Source of the DNA: an uncultured bacterium
Lineage (GTDB): Bacteria; Patescibacteriota; Gracilibacteria; Absconditabacterales; Absconditicoccaceae
Direction: 5' to 3'
Length of the DNA stretch: 33,684 bases
Assembly (NCBI GenBank): GCA_946611795.1
Contig: CAMOEC010000016.1
Location: 1-33,684, forward strand
A program made the translations under genes and the position numbers. The notes beneath the pieces were generated by a model. That model searched no databases. It had not been told where the DNA came from and saw nothing but the letters and a program-made list of their open reading frames with translations. Positions 5,175 through 24,649 of this stretch are shown here, in pieces (positions within the stretch are counted from its first letter, which is position 1; each line of letters starts with the position of its first letter).

Positions 5175-6899
5175 TTAAAGTTCTTTTCTCATAGTTAAGA
5201 GTTGTGATTTTGATTCTGCTGTTACTTTTGGATTTTTTAAGGCTATTTGTAATTCTTTTTGAATTACTGGAAGAAGTGTTTGAATGATATGTTGATATCT
5301 AACATTATTTTCTTCTAGTACTTCAAGTTCTTGATCTCGTCGGAGAGTTAATTCATCTATTTTAGTTTTTTCTTCATCTGTTAAATTATTTTGAAATACT
5401 TTTGTAATCAAACTATCAGATGATTGTGCTAATGATTTACTAAATTCAAGAAATTTCTTTGCTTTTTCAGATTCTTGAAGGTATTTATCAATAAGATTAT
5501 TATATAGAATTGCAGCGTATAGCCATTCTCTCTCCAGTTTGTATTTTTCTGATTCTTTGTCTTCTTGCATACGCTGATTTTGAATAATTTGCATTCTTCA
5601 ATCAGTTGACTTATATCTTTTAAATTGGGTATCGATAATCTCAAATGCAAATCCTAATTTTTTAGCTAATATGTCTTTGTAGTGCTCTTGAATTGTTAAC
5701 GAATTTACGGAGATTATTACATCAAAAAGTGTGTTAATGAGTTTTTGTTTGTCTATTGGTGAAGTCATATCGGAGCTTTTTCTAAGACGATTATAGAGTT
5801 CTACGAATCAGTCTTCTGCTTTTGATAAACACTCATTAAAGATGTTTTTTCAATTTTCTTCATTTGAAATTTCATCTATATCTTTCCATGGTTCAGGTAA
5901 ACTTATGATTTTAGGGAAAAGATTCTGCTGATAAAAGAGTTTTAGAGCTCTCTGTGTCGCTTGTTGTCATGCAAGATCATTGTCAAACATGAGATATATG
6001 TTTTCAGTATATCTTTTTAATATTTTTACATGCTCATTTGTGAGTGCTGTTCATGAAGTAGCAACACCAACAGGTATTCATAATTTTGCTAATCATAGGA
6101 CATCCATTTGTCATTCAACTATGATGATTTTTTCATGTTCTCTTATATTGTTTTTTGCAAAATTTAATCAATAGAGAACTTTTGATTTTTCGAATGCTTT
6201 ATGTTCTGCACTATTTAAATATTTTGGTTTATCTTCTGGATTAATTACTCTTGCTGAAAATCCAATGATATTTCACATTATATCGAAAATAGGGAATGTA
6301 ATTCTTTTCCTAAAGAACGAATAAATTTCACCATTATCATTTTTCTTAGCAAGAGATGCTTCAAGAATGTCGTTATCTGTAAATCATTTAGATCTTAGTA
6401 ATTGAACTAATTCAAGGTATTTTTCTGGAGCATATCAGATTCAGAATTGTTCTATTAAATTATCGGTTAATTTTCTTTTTTCTTTTAGATAGTTTTTAGC
6501 TTCTTGATTATTTGCTAATTGTTCTTTAAAGAAATTTTGAGCTAAGGAATGAAGTCTTTTTATTTTTCATTTTTCATCATTGCTTGCTGCATATTTTTGG
6601 ATATTTGAGTCGTATTTTGTGATGTCTATGTTTTCGATTTTTGCTAGTTCTTTTACAGCATCCCAGAAGTCTATTCTTTCTATTTCTTGTATGAAGGTTA
6701 TAACATTTCCAGCTTTTCAACATCAAAAACATTTAAAAATTTGTTTTGTCGGAGATACGATAAATGAGGGAGTTTTTTCTTTATGAAAAGGACAACATCA
6801 AGCAAAATTGCTTCATGCTTTGTTTAATGGGACATACCTTTGGATTATATCAACAATGTCAGCTGAATCTTTTAAGTCATCAATTAGTTGGTTTGCCAT
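5175..6899 (-). CDS. dnaG: DNA primase DnaG
   Basis: DnaG makes RNA primers at the replication fork. Order of domains: N-terminal CHC2 zinc ribbon (CPFHKEKTPSF, then CFGCGKAGN, residues about 35-65); an RNA polymerase core with FGIGYAP, GFSARVI and the TOPRIM motifs IIVEGQMDVL and MFDNDLAGQ; then a helical C-terminal region of about 150 residues for helicase contact. The length, 574 residues, is normal. Several Gly codons in the zinc ribbon are TGA. A CGA-CGA pair (5337-5342) falls in the poorly conserved C-terminal region, so it does not settle whether CGA is Arg or Trp. ATG 6899 gives MANQLIDDLKD, a normal DnaG start. It is downstream of the pilin-like gene, probably in one transcript. Confidence 0.95.
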
Positions 6900-22683: not shown

Positions 22684-23574
22684 ATGAAAAAAATAATGTT
22701 GATAGATTGATCTGGGTTCTTATTCAGGTCATGGTATGCAATTAGTCCAATAATTGATAAGGAATGAAGGAATATTAATGTCGTATTTGGATTTATCCGT
22801 ATGATGTTGAAGCTTGTATTAGAAAAACCTGATTATTTTGTTATTGCTTGGGATTCTCCTGTTAAGACAAAGAGACATGAGGAATATGCTGAATATAAAG
22901 CTAATAGAAGAAAGATGGAGGATGAGTTTAAACAACAAATTCCTATAGTTAAAGATCTTATCGCAGAATTGTGAATTCCTAATTTGGCTTTCCCATGATA
23001 TGAAGCTGATGATATTGTTTATTCATTAGTTGAGAATTTTAAGAATGATAAATGACTAAATTTTCAAGTGTATACTTCAGATAAGGACTTAAAACAATTC
23101 CTAAGTGATAATATTGTTATTGTTGATTCTATGAAAAATCAAACCACTACATTACTTGATTTTTCAAAAGAATATGGGTTTGAACCAGTATTAATTATAG
23201 ATTATCTTGCTTTAATATGAGATCATGCAGATAATGTAAAATGAGTTGAATGAATTGGTCCTAAAAAAGCTTTAAGTTTGGTTCAAAAGTATTGAACTAT
23301 AGAAAATATTTATGATCATCTTGATGAATTAACTCCTGATTTGAGAAGTAAGTTAGAGAATGATAGAGAGTCTGCTTTTTTCTCTAAGCATTTAATTCAA
23401 CTTATGTATGTTGACGATTTGCAGTGAGCTTCTTTGGAAAATTATACGCTTAAAATAGATTTTGATAAGTGGGAAGAAATTTTATTGAAGAAGTGGGAGT
23501 TTAATTCTATGGCTAAGTTGTTTTGAGAAATAAAAAAATCATATACACAACCACAACAATTAGGACTTTTTTAG
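22684..23574 (+). CDS. stand-alone 5'-3' exonuclease / flap nuclease with C-terminal clamp motif
   Basis: A 5' nuclease equal to the N-terminal domain of DNA polymerase I, without the polymerase. The metal-binding acidic residues are visible in MLIDGSG (residues 5-11), AWDSP, GYEADDI and TSDKDLKQF. The helix-hairpin-helix part is DYLALIGDHADNVKGVEGIG, with Gly residues encoded by TGA. YKANRR is the arch region. At 296 residues it is a full 5' nuclease. It ends QPQQLGLF, which matches the bacterial sliding-clamp-binding consensus (QLxLF) exactly at the C-terminus, much as eukaryotic FEN1 carries a PCNA box near its end. It would remove RNA primers and flaps. The gene for the clamp-loader subunit delta follows. 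Confidence 0.9.
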
Positions 23575-23668: not shown

Positions 23669-24649
23669 ATGCTTAATTCTGTTTTCTTCTTTACATGAGA
23701 GAATGTATATACCTTAAGACAAGAACTTCATAAATGGAAGACAGCTTTTGTTGAAAAGTATTGAAGTGACAGTCTTTTTGTTTTTAATAGTGAAAATTGG
23801 GATAACTGAGTTGTTAATCAAGCGTTATATGCATGAGGATTATTTGTTAGTAAAAAGTTAGTAATATTAGAAGGAATTCCTAAAGAGTCTAATCAAGATT
23901 GATGAATACCTCAGGATAAAATAGATAAATTTTTGGTAGATTTTGAAAATAATCAAAAGTTTTTAACTGCAGATACTATTGTTGCATTTGTTTCTTCAAA
24001 GCCTGATAAAAGAACAAAGCTTTATAAATGGTTATCTAGTAATGCACAACTTAAAGAGTTCCCTGTTTATAGAGAAGCTAAGGTAAAGACTTTTATAAAG
24101 GAGAATTTAGCTCCATTACAAATATCAGAAGAAGGGATAACTTATTTCTTAGAAAAAATATGATCAGATTTGTTCCGTTTAAGTAGTGAAATAGAAAAGT
24201 TAAAATATGTAGTAAAAGAGTGAGAGGTAACAAGAGAAATGATTGATACCTATTGTTTTTGAATGACTGAAGAAAATGCTTTTTCTGTTTTTGATGCATT
24301 ATTTGAATCACCAAAAAATGCTGTTAAAATGATAGAAAATATGCAAAATGAAGGGAAAGATTGGAATGCTGTTTTACCTCCATTGCAGTGGAGTTTAAAG
24401 GTTATATTAACTATTATTGATTATGCTAATCAATGAATAAGGGATTCAAAAGTTATTGCTGCAGAAAGTAAGTTGGCTCCTTTTACGGTTTCAAAGAATA
24501 TTGGAAATATGGATTTGTATTTATCTCATCAAGGAAAGTTAGAAAATTTATTTAAAACAATTGTTGATGTTGAATATTCAATAAAAACGGGTAAATATCC
24601 AGATACATATTTCTGGTTAACAGTGAAAAAAGCTTTTCTTGGATTTTAG
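23669..24649 (+). CDS. holA: DNA polymerase III subunit delta (HolA-like)
   Basis: The delta subunit opens the sliding clamp in the clamp loader. The N-terminal strand-helix VFFFTGENVYTLRQELHKWK matches the family's YLLyGeE-y-i-ee pattern. KKLVILEGIPKE and DTIVAFVSSKPDKRTKLYKWL fit the usual VvvvenP and vfvs-kpDkRtklyK motifs. ITYFLEKIGSDLFRLSSEIEKL is the conserved Gly-Asp-x-Arg-x-l-x-x-E-leKL helix, and the C-terminal collar domain follows. Length 326, typical. The ATP site is absent, as expected for delta. Sequence conservation in this family is low, so the call rests on the order of motifs. It lies directly behind the 5' nuclease gene. Confidence 0.85.

Follow-up and report, generated by a model that had tools for sequence, protein, structure and literature searches.

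A stand-alone flap endonuclease with a conserved, putatively clamp-binding C-terminus in a code-25 Patescibacterium without a detected Pol I domain

The window analysed here is a stretch of 33,684 bases, contig 16 of a 1.31 Mb assembly in 81 contigs, and the gene of interest in it encodes a stand-alone flap endonuclease (FEN) whose last residues resemble the peptide by which bacterial proteins bind the sliding clamp. Genes of the window are interrupted under translation table 11 and open under NCBI code 25 (TGA = Gly), which the genetic-code table labels as that of SR1/Absconditabacteria and Gracilibacteria and which Absconditabacteria are described as using (PMC8080830; papers are cited here mostly for excerpts of their text). 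The host is a code-25 Patescibacterium of the Gracilibacteria/Absconditabacteria type, one of the ultra-small bacteria, and ‘family’, ‘class’ and ‘phylum’ below are those of this organism. The FEN reading frame (22684–23574, forward strand) encodes 296 residues under this code, with 11 TGA codons translated as glycine, and a Pfam search of the protein found 5_3_exonuc_N (8.5e-47) and 5_3_exonuc (1.6e-24), both above the cut-off, and no polymerase domain. The N-terminal 5' nuclease domain (5_3_exonuc_N; 22690–23160, forward strand) holds the invariant residues D8, D57, E107, D109, D110, D133 and D135, and the SAM-fold or helix-hairpin-helix DNA-binding region (23182–23406, forward strand) the invariant D180 and D183, all of which we take, by homology, to be the metal-binding carboxylates of both sites. 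An AlphaFold model built from 30 family sequences has an ordered body (mean predicted local distance difference test, pLDDT, of 93.1) and was matched by Foldseek to plastid-localized exonuclease 1, Escherichia coli ExoIX, Mycobacterium smegmatis FEN, Taq 5' nuclease and T5 FEN, and after these to Rad2, T4 RNase H and FEN1. Judged from its domains, carboxylates and modelled fold, the predicted protein belongs to the bacterial FEN/5'-3' exonuclease family, and it is the sole 5' nuclease of the DNA polymerase I (Pol I) type detected in its genome.

A preliminary description of this DNA had the nuclease ending in a QLxLF-type motif at its extreme C-terminus, and sequence, frame and stop confirm this under code 25: positions 23551–23574 read CCA CAA CAA TTA GGA CTT TTT TAG (PQQLGLF-stop) in frame with the FEN gene, whose product ends in TQPQQLGLF. 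The last helix of the model ends at residue 288, Q289-P290-Q291 (23548–23556, forward strand) starts a presumably flexible tail, and the predicted clamp-binding motif Q292-L-G-L-F296 (23557–23571, forward strand) is followed directly by the stop TAG (23572–23574); mean pLDDT over residues 291–296 is 57. The motif fits the consensus QxxLF, its third position being Gly and not S/D as in the published forms QL(S/D)LF and QxxL(x)F (PMC4976356). Among the 31 genes of the window a strict version, defined as Q..[LMI][FL] at most 2 residues from the protein end, occurs in FEN alone. When the whole genome was scanned with the DNA pattern Q-x-x-[LF]-F-stop and the upstream frames of all sites were checked, 68 sites were found against 42 for a reversed control pattern, and frames of at least 120 codons end at two of the 68, namely FEN and the NAD+-dependent ligase LigA (a 111-codon frame, L183, also ends at the pattern and looks like noise). 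From composition, 0.24 genes in 1250 (a gene number assumed for this estimate) would be expected to end exactly in Q..LF, and two were observed in the genome.

Thirty aligned FENs of the family, 39–90% identical to the window protein, share 33 invariant columns, which include L295 and F296 as well as the catalytic acids; between F273 and L295, K278 alone is nearly invariant. A terminal [LMI]F is kept in 30/31 family FENs, the exception (L006) coming from an assembly with Ns, and the relatives thus retain the ending whose absence from them the preliminary description had named as telling against its claim. The strict motif is present in 26/31 and a loose form in 28/31, compared with 0.40/31 expected for the strict motif when the last 25 residues are shuffled (a second, short match in one genome, L059 in G030, was left out of the FEN counts). 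Because L295 and F296 are invariant, the tail lies outside the folded domain and long frames end at only two of the 68 pattern sites, the FEN motif goes beyond what chance would give, and the tail is a real, conserved feature. To suppose a coincidence, or the simple inheritance of an unselected tail, is to lean on the relatedness of these sequences, which does mean that the counts are not independent events; such an origin has next to no probability in our view, given the excess over shuffling, the linkers of other families, which differ in length and sequence whilst the end stays constant, and the lack of the motif in the 22 solo FENs from outside the phylum and the 88 fused Pol I ends considered below.

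In other families of the class, FENs of genomes that lack PolA show the strict motif in 26/29 and the loose one in 27/29 cases, and FENs of class genomes with PolA on a separate protein show both in 3/3. For other classes, counted among the matches listed, the stand-alone FENs of PolA-lacking genomes gave 10/18 (strict) and 15/18 (loose), and those of genomes with a separate PolA 7/12 and 9/12, the misses in the latter group being one sequence that contains Ns (L093) and two with odd ends (L088, L090). Phylum-wide, with the other-class rows again among the matches listed, 82/93 stand-alone FENs carry the loose and 72/93 the strict terminal motif; from an even draw of 239 genomes across the phylum (5' nuclease domain in 227, PolA domain in 177), all 40 new stand-alone FENs among the matches listed were retrieved. 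By comparison, the motif was found in 0/20 C-termini of fused Pol I from the phylum, chosen near the top of the match list and not randomly, in 0/68 closed fused Pol I proteins of a wider genome scan and in 0/22 solo FENs from outside the phylum (Bacilli, Microbulbifer, Edwardsiella). Some Bacilli with TGA-containing frames entered the last comparison, and a search for Mollicutes by a 16S primer pattern gave no match. Since 82/93 stands against none in these three sets, the putative clamp peptide goes with the separateness of FEN within the phylum and not with FENs generally, and as a general property of solo FENs it was rejected for this sample.

Some control sequences have endings that approach the motif. 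One fused Pol I of the phylum (L117, G226) ends in WGEMKELNLF, near the clamp motif, with Q absent, and in the second solo FENs of Exiguobacterium (L325, L327) the last residues are YRFGSHLF, with LF at the terminus and no Q. The end of E. coli ygdG (ExoIX; L122:5056-5811), NLQQLRLVR, resembles QLxL(V), and its Edwardsiella homologue ends in NLQQLRLGAAG; we did not count this likeness as a motif because it is not kept.

In a FastTree phylogeny of 117 rows the motif label changes at least 11 times and the stand-alone versus fused state 8 times, which suggests several origins of the motif in a tree that has many weak branches and long branches that meet, and that includes one fused Pol I titled as of the phylum (L283).

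A profile search did not find DNA_pol_A (PF00476) in the genome of the window, nor in any of the 36 family genomes (0/36), which include the one-contig assemblies G007, G011 and G027; the same search was positive in 10/14 control genomes. A full-length polA with its own 5' nuclease, the other finding that the preliminary description had named as contrary to it, was thus not detected, and its proposal of a separate nuclease with its own clamp motif, in the manner of FEN1 and PCNA, gains support from the conserved tail together with the missing Pol I domain. Elsewhere in the class DNA_pol_A was found in 3/23 genomes of other families (G037, G048, G057), the match in G057 being a fragment of 75 residues that lies at the end of a contig. 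The separate 5' nucleases of these three genomes (L043 in G037, L050 in G057, L056 in G048) have an extra C-terminal part (403–438 residues from the likely start) and end in the clamp motif with the Pol A domain on another protein, i.e. Pol I in two pieces.

The second long frame of the genome scan belongs to LigA (L150 / L191, G000:C34:7177-8691, reverse strand), which ends in IQGGLF after a BRCT region that was recognised by eye; a ligase partner was unexpected. LigA was matched in 58/59 genomes (none in G029), with the ends of 50 read and 8 unread, and L215 (frame open at a contig end) and L235 (contig end) were left out of the counts. A terminal [LMI]F is present in 30/30 readable family members and Q followed by 1–2 residues and [LMI][FL] in 27/30, compared with 3/18 and 1/18, respectively, in the other families of the class. 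From these counts and the 82/93 FENs, the FEN tail appears widespread in the phylum and the ligase tail mainly a trait of the window's family; both the ligase tail and the phylum-wide contrast between separate FENs and fused Pol I go beyond the preliminary description.

The ligase bears on the question of what the tail binds. An LF end could serve another partner, such as SSB or a protease, or pack on the FEN body, its likeness to a clamp peptide being incidental, and clamp binding of the tail is indeed deduced from sequence; four FENs (L030, L032, L042, L054) moreover have LF or IF without Q at the right place. Such a role is very unlikely in our estimation, as Q stands at a fitting spacing in the great majority (the 82/93, other-class rows among the matches listed), the tail is modelled with low confidence and is not packed, and LigA terminates alike although its fold is unrelated.

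The genome encodes a clamp of DnaN type (G000:C26), which aligned to E. coli DnaN with 79 identical positions. Of the E. coli positions taken to line the pocket it keeps twelve (L155, T172, R176, L177, P242, R246, V247, N320, Y323, V360, V361 and P363) and has changed ten others, given below; the core of a peptide-binding pocket is plausible. Pol III alpha (DnaE), of DNA polymerase III (Pol III), is also present.

The best reading of these observations is that a clamp-recruited FEN and ligase would mature Okazaki fragments without Pol I, and we consider a clamp-tethered FEN acting in this process very probable. Once an Okazaki fragment is complete, the clamp would stay at its end, and FEN would be brought to Okazaki 5' ends by the clamp at the nick, not by fusion to a polymerase, docking in the DnaN pocket by its flexible C-terminal QLGLF. 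From there it could reach the RNA primer at the 5' end of the following fragment, where it would cut the flap raised by Pol III, gaps probably being filled by clamp-bound Pol III alpha, and LigA would dock by its own tail and seal the nick. Given that LigA has a similar terminal peptide, flap cutting and sealing would share one platform. Since clamps of the DnaN type are dimeric and offer two pockets, the polymerase, FEN and the ligase would occupy them in turn. We infer the docking, the order of hand-over and the gap-filling enzyme from the parts found.

Several observations weigh against this reading. The clamp differs from the E. coli pocket at G174S, H175F, F278N, V344Q, S345K, S346P, M362R, M364L, R365N and L366I, some of these positions lying in poorly aligned stretches. 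Not even the loose motif is present in three family FENs (L030, ending in GGLFDI; L032, ending in DGGLF; and the N-containing L006), the ligase tail is rare in the other families of the class, and the window's assembly is 90.4% complete with 5.4% contamination. FEN was detected in 53/59 genomes of the class, and 5/36 family genomes have no FEN match; one of the family (G027; one contig, 97% complete) lacks both a FEN match and a PolA domain, with LigA present and ending in QTSLFG, and the same double absence was found in G058. Perhaps not every genome needs a FEN, or that of G027 escaped the search.

The two genomes with neither protein detected also lend something to the idea that the tail does bind DnaN but serves a FEN engaged mainly in repair, Okazaki primers being removed by RNase H and exonucleases. 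Clamp binding alone does not tell replication from repair, and redundant routes are described in Bacillus subtilis (PMC13220808, PMC10191290). This division of labour seems unlikely to us, since the ligase, the other maturation enzyme, has the same tail in the family.

The putative arrangement recalls the archaeal and eukaryotic system of FEN1, PCNA and DNA ligase I, in which a stand-alone flap nuclease and a ligase are both recruited by the clamp (PMC9690074), as we would propose here from sequence, and the nuclease fold is related to that in the human FEN1–PCNA entry 1ul1 (Foldseek 9e-09). It differs from that system in its bacterial FEN family, its DnaN-type beta clamp, its QxxLF motif in place of a PCNA-interacting peptide (PIP) box and its NAD+-dependent ligase; the clamp that was found being of DnaN type (no search aimed at PCNA was made) and the motif QxxLF, we do not count it as a FEN1–PCNA system, and it is presumably separate and convergent. 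In E. coli, too, a 5' nuclease acts together with the beta clamp on nicks between Okazaki fragments (PMC9690074), as is proposed here; there it is part of Pol I, fused to the polymerase, whereas our searches detected no polymerase domain of Pol I. B. subtilis FenA/YpcP/ExoR, E. coli ExoIX/YgdG and M. smegmatis FEN have the same domain pair and fold, but YgdG and the 22 solo FENs from outside the phylum are without the terminal motif. The NAD+-dependent LigA of Helicobacter pylori binds its clamp through the peptide QEFIRSLF, as seen by surface plasmon resonance and in a co-crystal (PMC4976356), and sets a precedent for a ligase–clamp peptide; there the peptide is internal (residues 554–561, near BRCT), whilst that of the window's genome is at the extreme C-terminus. 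T4 RNase H is likewise a FEN-family nuclease with a clamp motif, and gp45 raises its processivity, but its motif lies in the N-terminal domain and gp45 is a trimeric, PCNA-like phage clamp (PMC3012046).

Most bacteria without Pol I are reported to possess a solo FEN, and a QxxLF motif has been described in PolA2 (PMC12926913); the main text of that paper has no mention of Patescibacteria or the candidate phyla radiation (CPR), and we noticed no solo-FEN clamp motif in the excerpts consulted. For solo FENs recruitment by the substrate has been favoured (PMC11352351), and the main text of the B. subtilis FenA paper (PMC10191290) does not mention ‘clamp’ or ‘DnaN’. No description of a clamp-binding solo bacterial FEN was found in the literature searched, which lay mostly outside subscription journals.

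The standard account assigns the maturation of bacterial Okazaki fragments to Pol I, and the docking of both flap nuclease and ligase on the clamp has until now been known chiefly from archaea and eukaryotes. If the reading preferred here is true, the archaeal and eukaryotic toolbelt design can arise in bacteria, and how Pol I-less bacteria recruit a solo FEN becomes a direct question of peptide binding. We stand evenly divided on the wider proposal that Patescibacteria repeatedly dismantled Pol I and each time equipped the freed flap nuclease with a terminal peptide for beta-clamp binding, code-25 members doing the same with their ligase, to give a Pol I-free toolbelt of FEN, clamp and ligase convergent with that of archaea and eukaryotes. 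The fused, split and lost forms of Pol I in the phylum are a natural experiment on the reason why nuclease and polymerase are joined in Pol I at all.

Directly downstream of FEN, as the preliminary description had stated, lies the gene for the clamp-loader delta subunit HolA (23669–24649, forward strand; DNA_pol3_delta_C 1.9e-08). That description had also taken the adjacency as support for a lagging-strand role, and this part we dropped: HolA lies within about 1.5 kb of FEN in 2/31 family loci, those of the genome analysed here and of the relative closest to it (some of the 31 loci being cut by contig ends), and the neighbourhood is therefore no evidence for such a role. A further open reading frame of the window (5175–6899, reverse strand) resembles DnaG primase by eye, and if this is right the window holds three lagging-strand genes, DnaG-like, HolA and FEN.
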